From Urechidicola sp. (GTDB taxonomy: Bacteria > Bacteroidota > Bacteroidia > Flavobacteriales > Flavobacteriaceae): 43,037 nucleotides of DNA. Numbering within the stretch: position 1 is the stretch's first letter; each line of letters begins with the position of its first letter. The notes beneath the pieces were generated by a model. That model made no database searches and was not told where the DNA came from. It was given only the letters and a program-made list of their open reading frames with translations. A program made the translations under genes and the position numbers. Below, one piece after another: positions 5,170 to 35,399 of this stretch. The stretch is taken from positions 1-43,037 of the forward strand of contig JAQRMW010000167.1 of NCBI GenBank assembly GCA_028599075.1, read 5' to 3'.

Positions 5170-5176
5170 TTTTTAA

Positions 5177-5208
5177 GGTTCAAAGGTTCAAAGGTTCAAA
5201 GGTTCAAA
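5177..5208. repeat. Four perfect tandem copies of octamer GGTTCAAA
   Basis: Units occupy 5177-5184, 5185-5192, 5193-5200 and 5201-5208, with AA before and GT after. On the minus strand it reads as TTTGAACC four times and then TTAA, ending 7 nt before the mtnN start codon. The same unit, in degenerate form, bounds the four-helix-bundle gene at 31603-31626 and 32021-32044. Confidence 0.95.
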
Positions 5209-5221
5209 GTAGGGGTGTGGT

Positions 5222-11137: not shown

Positions 11138-11167
11138 CAAATGTAAAAAAATAAATTGCTAAAACAA
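11138..11167 (-). promoter_or_regulatory. Consensus Bacteroidota promoter of the DUF3276 gene
   Basis: On the minus strand TTG (11167-11165) is followed by exactly 19 nt and then TACATTTG (11145-11138). This matches the -33/-7 pattern of the Bacteroidota primary sigma factor. The start codon is 34 nt downstream of the -7 box. Confidence 0.75.
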
Positions 11168-11199
11168 TAGTGAATCATAAAAAAGAAATACTTTTTTAT

Positions 11200-12951
11200 T
11201 TATGATTCCTCTAAGAGTTGTTGCTCGTATAAATCCTTATAAAACCCTTTAATTTCTGATAATTCGGTATGTGTCCCTTTCTGAATTATTTTTCCTTTAT
11301 CTAAAATAATGATGGTATCTGCATGTTTAATAGACGATACTCGATGACTTACAATTATGGTTGTTCTATTTTTATTGACGCGTTCTAAATTCTTTAATAT
11401 AATTTCTTCGGTTTCTGTATCAACAGCAGATAAGCAATCATCTAAAATTAATATTTCTGGGTTTTTAATTAAAGCTCTGGCAATAGACACACGCTGTTTC
11501 TGACCTCCAGAAAGTGTTACGCCACGTTCACCTACAAAAGTTTGATAACCTTCTTTGAATTCTGATATGTTGTGGTTTATGTATGCGTCTTTTGCTGCTT
11601 GAATCACCATTTCTAATGTTGCATTCTCATCACCAAATAAAATATTATTCTCTATAGTGTCAGAAAACAGAAAAGCATCTTGGGGTACAAACCCAATACT
11701 TTGGCGTAAGTTGTCGAGATTTAATTTTTCAATATTTTGATTACCGATAGTGATACTTCCTTCAGGTGCATCGTACAAACGAGCTATTAAATTTATAATG
11801 GTAGATTTCCCTGCTCCTGTCATCCCTAAAATAGCTAAAGTCTTACCTTGCTTTAATTCAAAGCTAATGTTTTTTAAAGCTGTGATATTGGTGTCGTCAT
11901 AGGTAAATGAAACATTTTTAAAATTGATATCACCACTAATAAGTGTTTTTGATTCTGTGTTATTCTTAATTTCGGGTTCTTCTTTTAAAAACTCATTTAT
12001 TCTATTTTGAGATGCTTCGGCTTGCTGAACGATTGATGTCATCCAGCCTAAAACTGCCACAGGCCATGTTAAAATATTTACATACAAAATGAATTTTGCA
12101 ATATCGCCTAAGCTAATAAATCCATCAATATAGCGGATGCCTCCAACATAAATCACTACCAAGTTGCTAATGCCAATAAGTAAAATCATCACAGGAAAAA
12201 AGAATGCCTGCACTTTATAGAGGTCAATATTTTTTTGCTTGCTATTTTCAGATACTTCTTCAAAAAGTTGAATAGTATTTGGTTCAATAGCATACGATTT
12301 TATAATCCTAACTCCAGAAAATGTTTCTTGAGTTGCTGTTGTAAGTTTAGATAGGTATTGTTGAACGATGGTTGTTTTTTTATGAATCAATCTGCTTAAA
12401 TAATAAATCATTACAGATAAAATTGGTAATGGAAGTAAAGTATATAGGGTTAGGGTTACATCTGTACGAATCATCAAAATAAGAGTTACAACAATAGATA
12501 CTAAGGTGTTTAAGCTGTACATCACCGCTGGTCCGAAGTACATTCGTACTTTGCTAACATCTTCACTAATCCGATTCATTAAATCACCAGTTCTGTTCTT
12601 TTTATAAAAGTTGAGAGACAGTTTTTGATATTGCTGGTAGATTTCATTTTTTAAATCAAATTCGACCAGACGAGAAGTCACAATTATTTTTTGACGCGTT
12701 ATATAAGTTAGTACTCCAGAAATGACTGCAGCACCAATAATGAGTAATATATTAAGAAGTAATTCTGATGTTACAATTGATTTGTCTGTGATAAGACCTT
12801 TTACAAATTCATCAGAAACATTGATAGAGTTTTTTATTAAATCTGGAATTTGGAGTTTTAAAGTGTTCGAAATTATTAGAATAACAACCCCGATACCATA
12901 CCGATATTTGTATTTAGCAAAGTATTTATTTACTTGTTTAAGGGCTTTCAT
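11200..12951 (-). CDS. ABC exporter half-transporter, MdlA/MsbA-like
   Basis: This 583-residue protein fuses a six-helix permease domain (about 1-310) to an ATPase domain (about 335-575). Motifs include Walker A GMTGAGKST, signature LSGGQKQRVSIARAL, Walker B LILDDCLSAVD and switch His in IVSHRVSSI. The residue after the Walker B Asp, normally the catalytic Glu, is Asp (LDD). That substitution is common in one half of heterodimeric exporters such as MdlA, so a second subunit elsewhere is possible. Substrate is unknown; lipid or drug export is typical. It faces nusB across a 97-bp divergent promoter region. Confidence 0.88.
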   Translation of the reverse strand: MKALKQVNKYFAKYKYRYGIGVVILIISNTLKLQIPDLIKNSINVSDEFVKGLITDKSIVTSELLLNILLIIGAAVISGVLTYITRQKIIVTSRLVEFDLKNEIYQQYQKLSLNFYKKNRTGDLMNRISEDVSKVRMYFGPAVMYSLNTLVSIVVTLILMIRTDVTLTLYTLLPLPILSVMIYYLSRLIHKKTTIVQQYLSKLTTATQETFSGVRIIKSYAIEPNTIQLFEEVSENSKQKNIDLYKVQAFFFPVMILLIGISNLVVIYVGGIRYIDGFISLGDIAKFILYVNILTWPVAVLGWMTSIVQQAEASQNRINEFLKEEPEIKNNTESKTLISGDINFKNVSFTYDDTNITALKNISFELKQGKTLAILGMTGAGKSTIINLIARLYDAPEGSITIGNQNIEKLNLDNLRQSIGFVPQDAFLFSDTIENNILFGDENATLEMVIQAAKDAYINHNISEFKEGYQTFVGERGVTLSGGQKQRVSIARALIKNPEILILDDCLSAVDTETEEIILKNLERVNKNRTTIIVSHRVSSIKHADTIIILDKGKIIQKGTHTELSEIKGFYKDLYEQQLLEES

Positions 12952-14069: not shown

Positions 14070-14576
14070 ATGAAAAAAGTAGTATTTATAACGGTTGCTT
14101 TAGCAACATTAACTTTTGCTTCTTGTACTAAAGAAAGTGCAAGTGCAAAGGTAAAGGCTGAAAATGTTAAAGAAGCTGAACAGAGAGATGCGGCAATCAA
14201 TAAAGGGGCTCCAATAATTGAGTGGAATAAAACAGAACATGATTTTGGTAATATTAATCAGGGCGATAAAGTAGAAACTATTTTTACTTTAACAAATGTT
14301 GGTGAAGGAGACTTAATAGTGACAAAAGCTAAAGGGTCTTGCGGATGTACCGTGCCACAATGGCCAAGAGAAGCTATTGCTCCTGGTAAAACTGCAGATA
14401 TTAAAGTAGTGTTTAATTCTAGAGGTAAAAAGAACAAATCAACAAACACAATTACCTTAACTACTAATACAGCAAAGGGCAGTGAAGTGGTACGTATCAA
14501 GGCATTTGTAAAAGTGCCAGATAGTAAAACGACTGTCGATAAGAATAAACCAATGATTAATGATCAATTAAATTAA
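14070..14576 (+). CDS. DUF1573 lipoprotein
   Basis: A lipoprotein signal (MKKVVFITVALATLTFASC, lipobox with Cys19) is followed by a DUF1573 immunoglobulin-like domain. The domain is recognised by the conserved IEWNKTEHDFGNINQGDKV and TKAKGSCGCTVPQWPREAIAPG segments, with a Cys-Gly-Cys pair in the latter. Residue count is 168, usual for the family. The function is unknown; such domains resemble ASH/MSP Ig folds. It sits 82 bp after nusB and 4 bp before yajC, as in many flavobacteria. Confidence 0.9.
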   Translation: MKKVVFITVALATLTFASCTKESASAKVKAENVKEAEQRDAAINKGAPIIEWNKTEHDFGNINQGDKVETIFTLTNVGEGDLIVTKAKGSCGCTVPQWPREAIAPGKTADIKVVFNSRGKKNKSTNTITLTTNTAKGSEVVRIKAFVKVPDSKTTVDKNKPMINDQLN

Positions 14577-14580
14577 CAAT

Positions 14581-14892
14581 ATGTATTTAGCAATATTATT
14601 ACAAGAGGGAGGCGGATTGATGTCTTATTTGCCATTTTTGGCAATGTTTTTAGTCATCTATTTATTTATGATTCGCCCTCAAATGAAACGTCAAAAAAAC
14701 GAAAAAGCTTTTCAAAGCGAAATCTCTAGAGGAACAAGAGTTATTACTTCTAGTGGAATTCACGGAAAAATTGTTGAAGTAAATGAAAACGACAATACCG
14801 TTGTTGTTGAAACAGGCGCTGGAAAAATTAAATTTGAGCGTTCTGCAATTTCAATGGAAATGACGAATAAATTAAATGAACCAAAAAAGTAA
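14581..14892 (+). CDS. yajC: Preprotein translocase subunit YajC
   Basis: YajC is a small inner-membrane partner of SecDF that assists Sec-dependent export. The 103-residue protein has one N-terminal membrane helix (about 15-34, YLPFLAMFLVIYLFMIRPQ). The hallmark I-R-P-Q-x-K-R-x-K segment follows, then a beta-rich domain beginning GTRVITSSGIHGKIVEV. It follows the DUF1573 gene by 4 bp and is followed by a strong terminator. Confidence 0.95.
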   Translation: MYLAILLQEGGGLMSYLPFLAMFLVIYLFMIRPQMKRQKNEKAFQSEISRGTRVITSSGIHGKIVEVNENDNTVVVETGAGKIKFERSAISMEMTNKLNEPKK

Positions 14893-23436: not shown

Positions 23437-23576
23437 GTTTTAAAACTCCAATTTCCAAATAGCAAAACCCAACTGTTTTTTGCCTTTCTCTTACAAACTG
23501 TAGTTCAGAATTTAACCTGTCATTTCAAGCAACTTAAAATTCAATCAACCATCAATCAACTATCAACCAACAACTA
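23437..23576. repeat. Low-complexity intergenic repeats between holA and the M28 peptidase gene
   Basis: The 140-bp convergent gap contains a degenerate 11-bp tandem: CAATCAACCAT (23542-23552), CAATCAACTAT (23553-23563), CAACCAACAAC (23564-23574), ending at the peptidase stop codon. Before it are CCAA-rich stretches (ACTCCAATTTCCAAATAGCA). No hairpin terminator is evident. Confidence 0.65.
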
Positions 23577-24620
23577 TTAATTATGAGCTAACACACTACC
23601 TTTATCAACCACCAATCTATCTTTTCTGTTTGCTATTTCCCAAGCTGTATAAAAAACTAATTGAGCGCGTTTGGTTAACAATTCAAGATTTATTTTGTCT
23701 GCAGTATCTGTTGGTTTGTGATAATCAGCATGCGTGCCGTTGAAATAGAAAATGATTGGAATATTATTTTTTGCTAAATTGTAATGATCTGATCTGTTAT
23801 AGAACTTGTTAGGATCATCTAATGCATTGAATTTATAATCTAACTCTAAATGCGTATAAGTTGCATTTGCTTTTTCATTGATTTCGTGTAATTCTGTACT
23901 TAACCTATCAGCACCAATAACATAAACATAGTTGTCATCACTAGGGTCGCGTTCTTTTCCAATCCTACCAATCATATCAATATTTAAGCCCGCAACCATA
24001 TTTTTAAGTGGATATACAGGATTATTTGAAAAATATTTTGAACCCAACAACCCTTTCTCTTCACCTGTAAAATTCATAAACAAAATAGAACGTTTAGTAC
24101 CATAACCTTCTTTTTTAGCAGTAGCAAATGCTTGTGCTATTTCTAACACAGCAGTTGTTCCTGATGCATTATCATCTGCTCCATTGTATACTTTTTCATT
24201 TTTAATTCCTTCATGGTCATAGTGAGAAGAAATGACTAAAATCTCATTAGGATTTTCAGTACCTTCAATAAAAGCTATTACATTCTCTGATGGGTTTTTA
24301 GACCTTTTATTTAAACTATCTACAGGGATATATTGATAGTAATTGTCTGATCCGTTAATTCCTGATATTCCAAAACTTTTATATTGATTTACTAAATACT
24401 CAGCAGCCATTTTTTGTCCTCTTTCTCCAGTTTGCCTTCCTTCAAAAGCATCTGAAGCCAAAGCATAAACATGCTCTTTAACATCGGCTGTATTAATTGT
24501 ATTAGCATATTTTTTTATGATTTCTGAGTTTGAAGTCAAATCATTACTCGTGGTATTTACTTTTGATTTGCATGCAAAGAGAATCGCTAAAATAAAGAGT
24601 GAAGTAAATATTTTTTTCAT
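23577..24620 (-). CDS. M28-family zinc metallopeptidase lipoprotein
   Basis: A 347-residue secreted aminopeptidase-like enzyme with lipoprotein signal MKKIFTSLFILAILFAC (Cys17). The co-catalytic two-zinc site of family M28 is complete: His133 (SSHYDH), Asp149 (NGADDNASG), Glu187-Glu188 (FTGEEKG), Asp215 (NIDMIGR) and His279 (NRSDHYN). It probably trims peptides in the periplasm or at the cell surface. An in-frame upstream box TATGTTTA (minus strand) resembles a -7 element. It is a single-gene unit. Confidence 0.93.
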   Translation of the reverse strand: MKKIFTSLFILAILFACKSKVNTTSNDLTSNSEIIKKYANTINTADVKEHVYALASDAFEGRQTGERGQKMAAEYLVNQYKSFGISGINGSDNYYQYIPVDSLNKRSKNPSENVIAFIEGTENPNEILVISSHYDHEGIKNEKVYNGADDNASGTTAVLEIAQAFATAKKEGYGTKRSILFMNFTGEEKGLLGSKYFSNNPVYPLKNMVAGLNIDMIGRIGKERDPSDDNYVYVIGADRLSTELHEINEKANATYTHLELDYKFNALDDPNKFYNRSDHYNLAKNNIPIIFYFNGTHADYHKPTDTADKINLELLTKRAQLVFYTAWEIANRKDRLVVDKGSVLAHN

Positions 24621-24697: not shown

Positions 24698-25495
24698 TTA
24701 TTTTTGTTTCAAAATAAATTGCTGCTGCTTAAAATCAAAATGTACAGTGTCAGAATCGAACAGCTTCTCTACACTTTTGTTTTCTATTAAATCTTTAGGA
24801 GTGCCAGTAATAAATTCTTTATCTGTCATCAACCATAATTCATCGGCAGTTTGTAATGCTAAATGAATTTCATGTGAAGAGACTATCACAGTTTTATTTA
24901 ATTGAGAGGCTAATTCTTTCAATAATTTAAAGGATTCCATTTTGTGTAAAACATCTAAATGTGCAGTCGGTTCATCTAAAATAATTAGCTCAGTTTCTTG
25001 CGCTAAGGCTCTAGATATTAATACGCGTTGCAATTGGCCATCACTCAACTCATAGTACTTTTTTTTAGATAACTGCTCAATTTTTGTCAAGCCCATGACT
25101 TTATGAATTTTGTCAACATCACTCTTTGTAAGTGTTCCCACCCAATTAGTATAAGGCTGCCTTCCTAAAGCAATAAGTTCGAAAACAGTCAAATTACTTT
25201 CAGGTAGTTTTTCGGTGAGTACCAAGCTCATAGTTTTAGCTAGCTCAATTTCTGAAAATGAGTTTAAATCTTTACCGTGAATATTAACATTGCCAGAAAG
25301 TTTGGGTTGCACTTTCGAAAGCGTTCTTAATAGGGTAGATTTCCCTATCCCATTTTTACCAAGAATACAAACAAAAGTCCCTTTTTGCAACTCAATATTT
25401 AAATTAGATGCAATGACTGTTTTCTTTTTCTTATTGGTATAGCCAATAGATAGATTTTCAGTTTTAAGGATGCTATGTTTATTTGAGTCTTTCAA
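24698..25495 (-). CDS. FecE/BtuD-like ABC ATPase for iron, haem or B12 uptake
   Basis: A 265-residue ATPase of a metal-chelate importer. Walker A LGKNGIGKSTL, Q-loop region ALGRQPYTNWVG, a slightly altered signature LSDGQLQRVLISRAL, Walker B LIILDEPTAHLD and switch His SSHEIHLA are clear. The only upstream start in frame before the conserved ILKTENLSIGY is TTG at 25495; a stop codon lies five codons further up and no ATG is available. This start falls inside a period-8 repeat array. It is the second gene after the permease. Confidence 0.87.
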   Translation of the reverse strand: MKDSNKHSILKTENLSIGYTNKKKKTVIASNLNIELQKGTFVCILGKNGIGKSTLLRTLSKVQPKLSGNVNIHGKDLNSFSEIELAKTMSLVLTEKLPESNLTVFELIALGRQPYTNWVGTLTKSDVDKIHKVMGLTKIEQLSKKKYYELSDGQLQRVLISRALAQETELIILDEPTAHLDVLHKMESFKLLKELASQLNKTVIVSSHEIHLALQTADELWLMTDKEFITGTPKDLIENKSVEKLFDSDTVHFDFKQQQFILKQK

Positions 25496-25531
25496 TATTT
25501 TAATTTTTCAATCATTCAATCATTCAATTCT
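25492..25531. repeat. Period-8 tandem array between FecD-like and FecE-like genes
   Basis: Units are TCAATATT, TTAATTTT, TCAATCAT, TCAATCAT and TCAATTCT. The array fills the whole gap between the permease stop (25532) and the ATPase start, and overlaps the TTG start codon. Period matches the GGTTCAAA arrays, but the unit sequence differs. Confidence 0.85.
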
Positions 25532-30743: not shown

Positions 30744-31601
30744 ATGATTTCCGAACAACAGTTCCAAAAAGAATTACAACTCATTATATCAAATGCTATC
30801 AGAGAAGATGTTGGCGATGGCGACCATAGTTCATTGGCGTGTATTCCTGAGTCTGCAAAAGGAAAAGCAAAACTATTGGTAAAAGATACGGGGATTATTG
30901 CAGGGGTCGAATTTGCAAATATGATTTTTAATTTTGTAGATGCAAATTTAGAGGTTGATGTTTTGATACAAGATGGTGCAAAAGTAACTCATGGTGATAT
31001 TGTTTTAACTGTTTCTGGCAGCTCACAATCTATTTTAAAAGCTGAACGCTTGGTATTAAATGCAATGCAGCGTATGAGTGCCATAGCAACTAAAACTACT
31101 TTTTATATGGACTTGCTCAAAGGCACCAATACTAAGATTTTAGATACCCGAAAAACAACTCCAGGAATAAGAGCTATCGAAAAATGGGCGGTAAAAATTG
31201 GAGGTGGAGAAAATCATCGTTTTGCTTTGTATGACATGATTATGCTTAAAGACAATCACATCGATTTTGCAAGGGGCATTACAAAAGCTATCCAAAAAAC
31301 AAAAGCCTATTTAAAAGACAACAGTCGTGATTTAAAAATTATAGTAGAAGCAAGAAGCCTTAAAGAGATTGAAGAAATATTAAAATCTGATGGAATCCAT
31401 AGAATTTTGATAGACAATTTTAATTATGAAGATACACGTAAGGCTGTTGCTATGATTGGTAATAAATGCCAAACAGAATCTAGTGGAGGTATCACTGAAG
31501 AAACCCTTAGGAAATATGCCGAATGTGGGGTAGATTATATTTCGTCAGGAGCATTGACACATTCAATTTACAATATGGATTTGAGTTTGAAAGCTTATTA
31601 A
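30744..31601 (+). CDS. nadC: Nicotinate-nucleotide pyrophosphorylase (carboxylating)
   Basis: Quinolinate phosphoribosyltransferase of de novo NAD synthesis: quinolinate plus PRPP gives nicotinate mononucleotide and CO2. The 285 residues include EDVGDGDHSSLA (18-29) and LNAMQRMSAIATKT. Further on are DTRKTTPGIRAIEKWAVKIGGGENHRFALYDMIMLKDNHI (about 133-172), IIVEARSLKEIEE and ESSGGITEETLRKYAECGVDYISSGALTHS. Its stop codon lies in the first bases of the inverted octamer repeat that bounds the four-helix-bundle unit. Confidence 0.97.
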   Translation: MISEQQFQKELQLIISNAIREDVGDGDHSSLACIPESAKGKAKLLVKDTGIIAGVEFANMIFNFVDANLEVDVLIQDGAKVTHGDIVLTVSGSSQSILKAERLVLNAMQRMSAIATKTTFYMDLLKGTNTKILDTRKTTPGIRAIEKWAVKIGGGENHRFALYDMIMLKDNHIDFARGITKAIQKTKAYLKDNSRDLKIIVEARSLKEIEEILKSDGIHRILIDNFNYEDTRKAVAMIGNKCQTESSGGITEETLRKYAECGVDYISSGALTHSIYNMDLSLKAY

Positions 31602-31602
31602 A

Positions 31603-31626
31603 GGTTCAAAGGGGCAAAGGTTCAAA
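31603..31626. repeat. Left octamer array of the four-helix-bundle unit
   Basis: Three 8-bp units: GGTTCAAA, GGGGCAAA, GGTTCAAA. Two are identical to the units of the array at 5177-5208. Confidence 0.9.
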
Positions 31627-31639
31627 GTGAAGATAAACT

Positions 31640-31999
31640 ATGAAAACATATAGAGAATTAATTGTTTGGCAAAAATCGATGGAGCTAGTGAAGGCTACTT
31701 ATAAAGTTTCTAGATTGTTTCCAGAATATGAGAAGTTTGGTTTGTCATCTCAAATTCAGCGATGTATTGTTTCTGTTCCAAGTAATATAGCTGAAGGATA
31801 TTGTAGAAATAGTTTAAATGACTATATTCGATTTTTAAATATTGCAACAGGTTCACTTTATGAATTTCAAACTCAGATAGAAATCGCATCAAATTTAAAC
31901 TACATTGAAAAAGATACTTTTAATAAAATTTTTGAAGATTCAAGAGAAATCGAAAGAATGATGTCAAGTTTAATTAGAAAATTAAAGCAAAAAAGATAA
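31640..31999 (+). CDS. Four-helix-bundle protein (23S rRNA intervening-sequence protein family)
   Basis: A 119-residue all-helical protein with the diagnostic family pattern. It opens YRELIVWQKSMELV and continues SRLFPEYEKFGLSSQIQRCIVSVPSNIAEGYCR (about 24-56) and IRFLNIATGSLYEFQTQIEIA (about 63-83). A basic tail ends RKLKQKR. Members include the S23 proteins encoded in intervening sequences of 23S rRNA genes, and the fold is shared with the Avd accessory protein of diversity-generating retroelements. They are thought to bind nucleic acid as multimers. Here it stands alone between nadC and yihY, framed by inverted repeats. No reverse transcriptase is present. Confidence 0.9.
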   Translation: MKTYRELIVWQKSMELVKATYKVSRLFPEYEKFGLSSQIQRCIVSVPSNIAEGYCRNSLNDYIRFLNIATGSLYEFQTQIEIASNLNYIEKDTFNKIFEDSREIERMMSSLIRKLKQKR

Positions 32000-32020
32000 T
32001 GTAGTGAGTTATGCTATACC

Positions 32021-32044
32021 TTTGCATCTCTGACCCTTTGCACC
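32021..32044. repeat. Right octamer array of the four-helix-bundle unit (inverted)
   Basis: Units TTTGCATC, TCTGACCC and TTTGCACC, followed by TTAA. They are degenerate reverse complements of the left array. The yihY frame can be read through it, but that extension is not expected to be translated. Confidence 0.75.
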
Positions 32045-32052
32045 TTAAAATA

Positions 32053-32985
32053 ATGACCAAAAGAATAGAAAATAACTTACTAAAGATTCCAGTTTTACGC
32101 TGGTTGGTTAGGTTTGCTATGAAAATCAAAATCCCAGGAATGCAAGGGATGTCTTTGTATGATTTGCTAGAAATGTATATCATCGGAATTGTAAATGGAG
32201 CTTTAACATCACGCGCTGGTGCCATTGCTTTTAGTTTCTTTATGGCGTTATTTCCATTTTTGCTTTTTATTTTAACCTTGATTCCAATTTTAAATATTGA
32301 TGGGCTTCAAGATTATTTCATGACCTTTTTAAAAGAATCTTTACCGCCAACAACAGCAGATTCTGTTGATGGAGTAGTGAATGATATTTTTAACAATCGC
32401 TATAACGGGCTTTTATCATTTGGATTTTTAACTTCAGTATTTTTGATGACCAATGGTGTCAATGCCATTTTTGGAGGATTCGAATATTCATATCACGTAA
32501 AGAAAACTCGTAATATGTTTAAGCAATTTATGATTGCCATGAGCGTGTCAATAATTCTGTCATTATTATTGTTGATTACGATTGCCATCATGATTTATTT
32601 TCAAGTAGGAATCGCAAATTTAAAAGCAAGTGGTTGGGTAAGTGATGATGTTTTTTGGATTGAAGTTGGACGTGTAGCATTTTTAATAGCAATGATTTAC
32701 ACTGGGGTTTCAATCTTATATAATTACGGAGTTAAAGATTTAACAAAGCGCTCCTTTTTTACCTCAGGAGCAATATTAACAACGCTACTCACTTTATTGA
32801 TGTTCTATTTATTCGGGATTTATGTCGAAAAATTTGCTCAATATAACAAGCTTTATGGGTCTATAGGAACTCTATTAATCTTGATGCTTTTTGTTTGGTT
32901 AAATTCCATCATATTATTACTCGGATTTGAATTAAACGCTTCAATGAATCGCCTAAGGTTAAAACATAAAATAGAAAAAAAATAA
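32053..32985 (+). CDS. YihY/BrkB-family membrane protein
   Basis: A 310-residue inner-membrane protein with six predicted helices. The YihY/BrkB (formerly 'ribonuclease BN') features are visible: [54 protein letters not shown] and [29 protein letters not shown]. Function is unknown; a transporter role is suspected. The start at 32053 ([10 protein letters not shown]) is preferred over 32011, because the extra 14 codons come from the repeat array. It follows the four-helix-bundle unit and precedes kdsB by 4 bp. Confidence 0.9.
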
Positions 32986-33785: not shown

Positions 33786-35399
33786 ATGAAACCAAGTATT
33801 CCAAAAGGAACTAGAGATTTTTCTCCAACACAAGTTGCACAACGTAACTACATTTTTAGCACCATAAAATCATCTTTCGAAAACTTTGGATTTCAACCTA
33901 TCGAAACACCAAGTTTTGAAAACTCATCTACCTTAATGGGAAAATATGGTGAAGAAGGGGATCGCTTGATATTTAAAATATTGAATTCTGGAGATTATTT
34001 AAAGAATGTTAGAAGTATAAAAATTAAAACAATTTTAGATAGCCGAACATTTATAAAGTTTTTTAAAAGTTTTATTCAAGATGATTCAGGATCATATGTT
34101 GAAGTTTTAGATGAGCATCTTAAAAAGTATTATCCACATGATGGGAAAAGAGCTTCAATGAAAAAGTATATGCTTGAAGCTAAAAAGGAATTTGATTATG
34201 AACTTAAAAATGTTAATAATAAAAATAGTAAAGAAAATTTATGGGAAGTTTTTTATTTGAATTTCAATAATTATTTTCTATTGGAATCAGAAAAAACTAC
34301 AAGTCTTATCTCAGAAAAAGCACTGCGCTATGATTTAACAGTGCCGTTTGCACGTTATGTAGTACAACATCAAAATGATATTTCATTTCCTTTTAAGCGC
34401 TATCAGATTCAGCCGGTTTGGAGAGCAGACCGTCCACAAAAAGGAAGGTTTAGAGAGTTTTATCAATGTGATGCAGATGTAGTTGGTTCTAAAAGTTTAG
34501 TACAAGAAGTTTCTTTTGTACAATTGTATGATGATGTGTTTACAAAGCTAAAATTATCTGGTGTTTGCATTAAAATGAACAATAGAAAAATTTTATCAGG
34601 AATTGCTGAGGTGATTGGTGCTGCTGATAAATTAATTGATTTTACCGTTGCGTTAGATAAACTAGATAAAATTGGTGTTGAGGGCGTAACAGATGAAATG
34701 TTATCAAAAGGAATTACCCAAGATGCAATTGATAAAGTGCAACCTTTGTTTAATTTTTCGGGATCAAATTCAGAAAAATTAAATCAGTTGAAAGGGATGC
34801 TACAAACTTCCGACGAAGGACTGAACGGAGTTCAAGAATTACAATTTGTAATTGATTCAATTGAGGCTTTAGGCTTACAGTCTGCCAGTTTAGAAATTGA
34901 TGTAACCTTAGCTCGTGGATTAAATTATTATACAGGTGCTATTTTTGAAGTATCAGCACCCAAGGAGGTAAAAATTGGATCTATTGGTGGTGGCGGTCGA
35001 TATGACGATTTAACAGGAATTTTTGGATTGAAAGATGTAAGTGGAGTAGGAATATCATTCGGTTTAGATCGTATTTATTTGGTGCTAGAAGAGTTAAATT
35101 TATTTGAGTCTGTTGAGTTGCCAAAACCAAAAGTATTGTTTTTAAATTTTGATGAGCAGCAACAACTATCATCCTTAAAAGCAATTGCCTCATTGAGAAA
35201 AGAGAATATAAAATGTGAAATATATCCTGATGTTGCATCGAGTAACAAACAACAAAAGAAGCAATGGAAATATGTTTCTAATAGAGCTATTGAATTTGTT
35301 GTCGCAAAGGTTGAAGGAGAATCGTTTACATTAAAAAATATGAATACAGGCAATCAAAGTGAATGTAGTTTAAGTGAATTGATAAAAACACTGAATTAA
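33786..35399 (+). CDS. hisS: Histidyl-tRNA synthetase with an extra internal segment
   Basis: Class II synthetase charging tRNA-His. Motif 1 region (KGTRDFSP...TPSFENSSTLMGKYGEEGDRL, 7-61), motif 2 (PVWRADRPQKGRFREFYQCD, 210-229), the histidine-binding ARGLNYYTGAIFEV and the motif 3-linked GGGGRYDDL...GVGISFGLDR are all intact. A C-terminal anticodon-binding domain is at about 450-537. At 537 residues it is about 80 longer than usual. The excess lies at about 72-172, between FKILNSGDYL and ISEKALRYDLTVPFAR, and is Lys/Phe-rich and mostly helical. The frame is open throughout, so the enzyme is probably functional. Confidence 0.93.
   Translation: MKPSIPKGTRDFSPTQVAQRNYIFSTIKSSFENFGFQPIETPSFENSSTLMGKYGEEGDRLIFKILNSGDYLKNVRSIKIKTILDSRTFIKFFKSFIQDDSGSYVEVLDEHLKKYYPHDGKRASMKKYMLEAKKEFDYELKNVNNKNSKENLWEVFYLNFNNYFLLESEKTTSLISEKALRYDLTVPFARYVVQHQNDISFPFKRYQIQPVWRADRPQKGRFREFYQCDADVVGSKSLVQEVSFVQLYDDVFTKLKLSGVCIKMNNRKILSGIAEVIGAADKLIDFTVALDKLDKIGVEGVTDEMLSKGITQDAIDKVQPLFNFSGSNSEKLNQLKGMLQTSDEGLNGVQELQFVIDSIEALGLQSASLEIDVTLARGLNYYTGAIFEVSAPKEVKIGSIGGGGRYDDLTGIFGLKDVSGVGISFGLDRIYLVLEELNLFESVELPKPKVLFLNFDEQQQLSSLKAIASLRKENIKCEIYPDVASSNKQQKKQWKYVSNRAIEFVVAKVEGESFTLKNMNTGNQSECSLSELIKTLN

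Follow-up and report, generated by a model that had tools for sequence, protein, structure and literature searches.

Is the IVP/S23-family gene between nadC and yihY, framed by short repeats in opposite orientation, an ordinary orphan gene beside chance octamers, or is it part of an element, and of which kind? The window, that is, the whole stretch of 43,037 nucleotides analysed here, corresponds to contig 76 in a draft genome of 3.36 Mb, and its relevant features are collected in Table 1.

An intervening sequence-like cassette between nadC and yihY

An earlier note, made from the letters alone, had described a 119-aa PF05635 gene with three octamers on its left and three inverted, degenerate octamers on its right, agreement at 19 of 24 positions between the left and right 24-mers, and TTAA at both outer ends; all of this is present in the sequence. 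The left array starts at the nadC stop codon (31599-31601) and reads GGTTCAAA (31603-31610), GGGGCAAA (31611-31618) and GGTTCAAA (31619-31626), while the right arm, as reverse complement, reads GGTGCAAA GGGTCAGA GATGCAAA. Both arms are 30 nt long and 80% complementary, and they were the best inverted pair of the region in the repeat search. The yihY start lies 3 nt past the end of the right array; we placed it from homologues, because relatives open with MTKxIE at this ATG, and the mechanical ORF begins at 32011, upstream of the right array.

Table 1. Arrays and genes discussed in the text, with window coordinates or locus names.
Feature	Position	Strand	Basis
nadC (quinolinate phosphoribosyltransferase), upstream cistron	30744..31601	+	PF01729/PF02749, TIGR00078
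Left repeat array, three octamers GGTTCAAA/GGGGCAAA/GGTTCAAA, sense strand G-rich	31598..31627	+	sequence, inverted-repeat search
IVP/S23/four-helix-bundle gene, 119 aa	31640..31999	+	PF05635 E 5.6e-39, TIGR02436 E 9.4e-39
Right repeat array, three degenerate octamers, reverse complement of the left unit, sense strand C-rich	32020..32049	+	sequence, inverted-repeat search
yihY/BrkB-like membrane protein gene, downstream cistron	32053..32985	+	PF03631
Solo perfect GGTTCAAA array, 4.4 copies, without IVP gene	5175..5209	-	repeat search
IVP genes in cas or restriction-modification operons	L392, L393, L395, L398, L401, L402, L403		

The IVP gene scores 133.1 bits against PF05635 (cut-off 33.8) and 132 against TIGR02436 (cut-off 24), and its PDB relatives are 2gsc and 2rld, with five chains apiece. 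It is co-directional with nadC and yihY, in an operon-like junction, and a scan upstream of the gene for promoter-like sites gave none beyond chance expectation. An Rfam search of 31400-32250 gave no match. Comparison with the same-site genes of two relatives (G012 and G011) gave dN/dS values of 0.13-0.14. At this locus the flank-versus-flank score, 18.5, reaches the 98th percentile of the mispaired flanks of other IVP loci, so that taken singly it exceeds chance only moderately; in G012, the orthologue at this site has longer arms, alike in type, that score 26.

Inverted arrays around IVP genes across Flavobacteriales

In a search set of 60 genomes, comprising that of the window and those of relatives, PF05635 genes occur in 43, at 0 to 16 copies per genome. 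Four further PF05635 genes in the genome of the window each show, by eye, short-period inverted flanks of differing unit. Among the 95 complete IVP genes of Flavobacteriales, 86 are co-directional with both neighbours, as compared with 56% and 67% of genes overall in the two genomes sampled for this. Flanks could be tested in 91 loci, where the left flank against the reverse-complemented right flank scored 18.1 on average, versus 10.3 (sd 2.4) for mispaired flanks and 9.2 for windows 300 bp further out; 60 of the 91 loci exceeded the 95th percentile of the mispaired distribution and 29 exceeded the 99th. The inverted-arm effect over these 91 loci is overwhelming. Left arms begin a median of 0 nt from the upstream stop and right arms end a median of 7 nt before the downstream start.

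The arms are periodic, with identities of 0.52-0.61 at lags 7, 14 and 21 versus 0.27-0.30 in control sequence (0.58-0.61 versus 0.28 at lag 7). The best period is 7 in 44 of 61 elements and 8 in ten, including the nadC-yihY element. This cassette is, then, an instance of a widespread pattern. The earlier note had read it as an IVS-like cassette in a protein operon with the octamer as a special word; the empty sites and the array-IVP association described below bear out the first part, but we reject GGTTCAAA as a special word, because units differ between elements and are mostly heptamers. The long hairpin that it proposed is only partly upheld: the predicted fold pairs the two arms, but the complete element has an unremarkable fold (z -0.93), and mismatches between the arms show no G-U bias (63 versus 86 of the A-C type), so that RNA pairing is not visibly selected.

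Occupied, empty and gene-less junctions

The earlier note's statement that nadC and yihY are neighbours in other flavobacteria proved correct, their adjacency being present in about 25 relatives, and the search for an empty site, which the note proposed as a check, found relatives without the element. Their junction is of the TAATG type with a gap of 0-6 nt, the stop and start mostly overlapping or nearly touching, and the element is exactly at this junction in G000, G011 and G012. In G002, whose nadC is 90% identical, there is a 35-nt spacer ending in CACTTTGCACCTTTAAAGG, a right-arm-like scar, and in G008 an 87-nt spacer without a gene contains inverted repeats of a different unit. No target-site duplication was identified; with a TAATG-like empty site nothing beyond TA is callable.

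Gene-less forms are found elsewhere too. The fadB|fadA junction holds IVP elements in some genomes, and in others nothing more than a compact inverted array (77-119 nt) that lacks the gene; gene-less inverted arrays also occur at an acyl-CoA-dehydrogenase site and beside groEL.

Descent of the IVP genes and of their repeat units

IVPs at the same site mostly form one clade (16 site changes on the tree versus 34.7 when shuffled), which looks like long vertical inheritance. More than one origin is needed at the fadB|fadA, sufA|sufB, hemE and sdhA|sdhB sites, according to a quick tree in which some forks are unresolved and for which site gene names come from inspection of the ends. The protein is under purifying selection (dN/dS 0.06-0.31). 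Among the sampled IVPs there were no near-identical copies at different sites, the maximum being about 80% identity with synonymous divergence near 1; movement, if any, is therefore rare or old, and recent transposition is not seen. In keeping with the MITE-like reading of the earlier note, gene-less forms do exist.

In pairs from different sites and different genomes, unit similarity tracks protein identity (r 0.22, 0 of 2000 permutations), and elements sharing one genome are no more alike in unit than others (0.211 versus 0.218). That the unit follows the IVP lineage fits repeat recognition and plain co-inheritance as well. The correlation is absent across phyla (1162 of 5000 permutations), so that within the order it may be due to shared descent and not to recognition; CAGT-type units are shared by two IVPs of Cyanobacteria that belong to different orders and are 72% identical. 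Recognition of its unit by the protein is suggested by these sequence comparisons, the octamer of the earlier note being just one among many units, each tied to a lineage. Pairing specific to register, over and above what unit similarity gives, is weak, and the register and concerted-evolution tests are biased upward because the arms were picked by best alignment and trimmed.

Solo arrays in IVP-bearing genomes

Arrays also occur without an IVP gene. The perfect array at 5175-5209 lies between the stop of an ABC-transporter gene (5222) and the start of an MTA/SAH-nucleosidase-like gene (5169) on the minus strand; its sense strand is C-rich, as in right arms, and its best match among 61 element arms is the window's own IVP element. 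Because it is perfect, the notion that solo arrays are only decayed remnants is not fully supported.

The genome-wide association of arrays with IVP genes, proposed as a check in the earlier note, was found: eight genomes without PF05635 yielded one array in 659 kb, versus 48 in 1.6 Mb for ten genomes with PF05635, a few of these being IVP arms. The presence of lag-7 arrays correlates with that of IVP genes (Spearman 0.70, p 0.001), versus 0.25 (p 0.32) for other lags, and 400 kb of G020 devoid of IVP genes contain 13 intergenic lag-7 arrays, versus 0-2 at other lags. In the sampled genomes, arrays after stops are G-rich on the sense strand in 17 of 24 cases and those before starts C-rich in 17 of 19. 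Solo arrays were closer to the IVP unit of their own genome than to those of other genomes in 13 of 43 cases (p<=0.1), and two of the 13 are themselves IVP arms. The CAGTNNN pattern is abundant in two genomes with CAGT-armed IVPs, G026 (398 matches) and G032 (92), and matches only a few times in IVP-free genomes; it is also frequent in G024, G037 and G052, with no CAGT-armed IVP among their IVPs read. The octamer pattern of the window occurs chiefly in a small number of congeneric genomes.

Several other arrays were seen in passing. The window contains two further intergenic arrays with no adjoining IVP gene, one ATCAACC-like of period 7 (23544-23584) and one TTCAATCA-like of period 8 (25482-25528). 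On L173, from G020, stop-side and start-side arrays of unrelated units, with no gene between them, occur at 11151-11238 and 14522-14621. Arrays are unusually dense in G036 (L255-L259), with 14 of period 7 and nine of period 8 in 100 kb and only three IVP genes. At 1495-1570 of L005 (G000 contig 219), an octamer array runs straight into GTCATTTCGAACGCAGTGAGAAATCTC, a repeat common in Bacteroidota, within an AMP-ligase-like frame that is otherwise open.

IVP loci on plasmids and TAACTGA arrays

Sixteen plasmid IVP loci, from Cyanobacteria, Gemmatimonadota, Bacillota, Spirochaetota, Chloroflexota and Cytophagia, gave a mean flank score of 20.8 versus 10.2 for mispaired flanks, and most have visible 7-nt arrays whose units differ. 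The arrays of two of them (L393 and L403) are direct, not inverted, and some cyanobacterial IVP genes are antisense to their neighbours (for example, L390). Plasmid IVP genes from Cyanobacteria, Bacillota and Chloroflexota were also seen inside CRISPR-cas operons (cas6|cas4, cas10|cmr3, csx2|cas1) and restriction-modification operons.

In a Nostocales MAG (L353), an IVP gene lies between inverted TAACTGA arrays. PF05635 is present in 45 of 49 genomes with TAACTGA arrays, which are of mixed lineages and include many large genomes, versus 44 of 116 in a sample of one cyanobacterial class; the link between TAACTGA and IVP stands at the genome level, in an uncontrolled comparison. Five genomes with TAACTGA arrays have no PF05635 match (G205, G061, G088, G092 and G099), the first of which, from the class of G067, has several such arrays. 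The expectation that an IVP gene would usually adjoin such arrays was not borne out, this being so at one of 80 array loci.

Relation to known systems

The 23S rRNA IVS of Coxiella contains three tandem GACAGAT heptamers ahead of the S23 ORF, in strain-variable number, and RNase III cuts it; what the S23/IVP protein does and how rRNA IVSs move are described as unclear (PMC4990558). As in the IVSs of Coxiella and Leptospira, a sense PF05635 ORF lies here between complementary ends. Unlike them, the insert is located between protein genes, nadC and yihY, at a stop/start junction and not in helix 9, 25 or 45 of the 23S rRNA, and its unit is 8 nt long. Strict IVS membership fails because the element is outside 23S rRNA, although the design is the same. 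We read the nadC-yihY system as a relative of the rRNA intervening sequence that is placed between cistrons, and not as a wholly new kind.

The second likeness is to the heptamer arrays, namely TAACTGA arrays, described as without a mechanism (PMC4679880), GGGNATC arrays of Xanthomonas and Nostoc, with inverted pairs reported in Xanthomonas (PMC4692102), and cyanobacterial STRR. All of these are tandem, lie between co-directional genes and are near stops or starts, and they follow the strand rule of the solo arrays described here, whose anatomy TAACTGA and GGGNATC arrays share. Unlike in those three, the arrays here also flank an IVP gene and the unit varies between elements. The position of the nadC-yihY locus fits the heptamer-array class, but its 8-nt unit does not.

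The protein belongs to the same superfamily as Avd of diversity-generating retroelements, and matches bAvd and NF033474 weakly, below the curated cut-offs (30.8 versus 40 and 24.3 versus 80 bits, respectively). The elements also resemble MITEs and TIR transposons in their inverted ends, their short gene-less forms and the occupied or empty state of junctions among relatives; unlike these, they have no transposase, no clear target duplication and no recent near-identical copies.

S23 is not mentioned in PMC4679880 or PMC4692102, nor are four-helix or intervening in PMC4679880. We found no paper linking IVP genes with repeat arrays in a search mostly outside the subscription literature, where prior knowledge is possible. 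The association between IVP genes and arrays is real, widespread and apparently unreported.

Possible mechanism and alternative explanations

On balance, we read the nadC-yihY cassette as an intercistronic IVS-type element, consisting of an IVP gene between inverted tandem arrays and placed exactly between an operon stop and the next start, where relatives have a junction of 0-6 nt. The IVP would be expressed from the host operon transcript. Within it, folding predicts that the arrays pair, looping out the IVP cistron and bringing the host's stop codon close to the next start codon; alternatively, by analogy with 23S rRNA IVSs, the paired arrays could offer a duplex to RNase III, and either process might explain why the insertion is tolerated. 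The IVP, as an Avd-like four-helix bundle, may bind the repeated unit of its own lineage, and it is probably needed for the keeping or tolerance of the element, which would account for the purifying selection. At other junctions, solo arrays and inverted arrays lacking the gene would be non-autonomous products or remnants. We infer that IVP elements are mobile and that their ends spread.

It is unlikely, in our opinion, that the IVP is instead a resident, non-mobile RNA-binding regulator whose own arrays serve for autoregulation and whose solo arrays make up a regulon. TRAP, for instance, wraps RNA around repeated triplets, and a regulator would agree with the fixed strand rule at stops and starts, with a unit that follows the protein lineage, with purifying selection and long residence at a single site, and with the presence of solo arrays in the same genomes as IVP. 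It agrees poorly with a very patchy distribution, with several unrelated lineages in one junction (fadB|fadA), and with clean empty sites and gene-less hairpin forms; furthermore, the left and right arms are complementary in RNA, so that one RNA-binding rule would not read both as the same word.

More improbable still is that replication slippage generated the arrays independently in permissive spacers, with IVP genes merely tolerating the same places and no functional link. Slippage has been proposed as the source of bacterial heptamers (PMC4692102), the perfect array at 5175-5209 looks freshly expanded, and some junctions hold two arrays of unrelated units and no gene. This explanation is at odds with lag 7 alone standing out, and only in IVP-bearing genomes, with arms that are inverted copies of one unit, and with a unit that follows the IVP lineage and not the genome. 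Lastly, an ordinary orphan IVP gene beside chance octamers, for which only the modest arm score of this locus speaks, is refuted by the flank scores of the 91 loci, the empty sites, the array-IVP association and the plasmid loci, with the longer arms in G012, the arm-like scar in G002 and the repetition of the pattern in dozens of loci from several phyla also against it.

Beyond the intercistronic IVS-type element that we favour for nadC-yihY, we consider it possible, though rather less probable, that IVP/S23 proteins form the protein half of a system that recognises repeats and generates or maintains short intergenic tandem arrays, STRR, TAACTGA and GGGNATC arrays and rRNA IVSs all being products of one kind of element. 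If so, two old puzzles would be joined, what the IVP protein is for and how the 7-letter repeat arrays of bacteria arose; each array unit would predict a protein partner and each IVP gene would have a candidate binding site alongside. The genes annotated as 'four helix bundle protein' would then mark a widespread intercistronic element of core operons, present also inside CRISPR-cas and restriction operons on plasmids.

At 33786-35399 of the window, a histidyl-tRNA synthetase ORF (537 aa) appears to contain, between its GDYL and ALRYDLTVPFARY stretches, a long insert rich in lysine.
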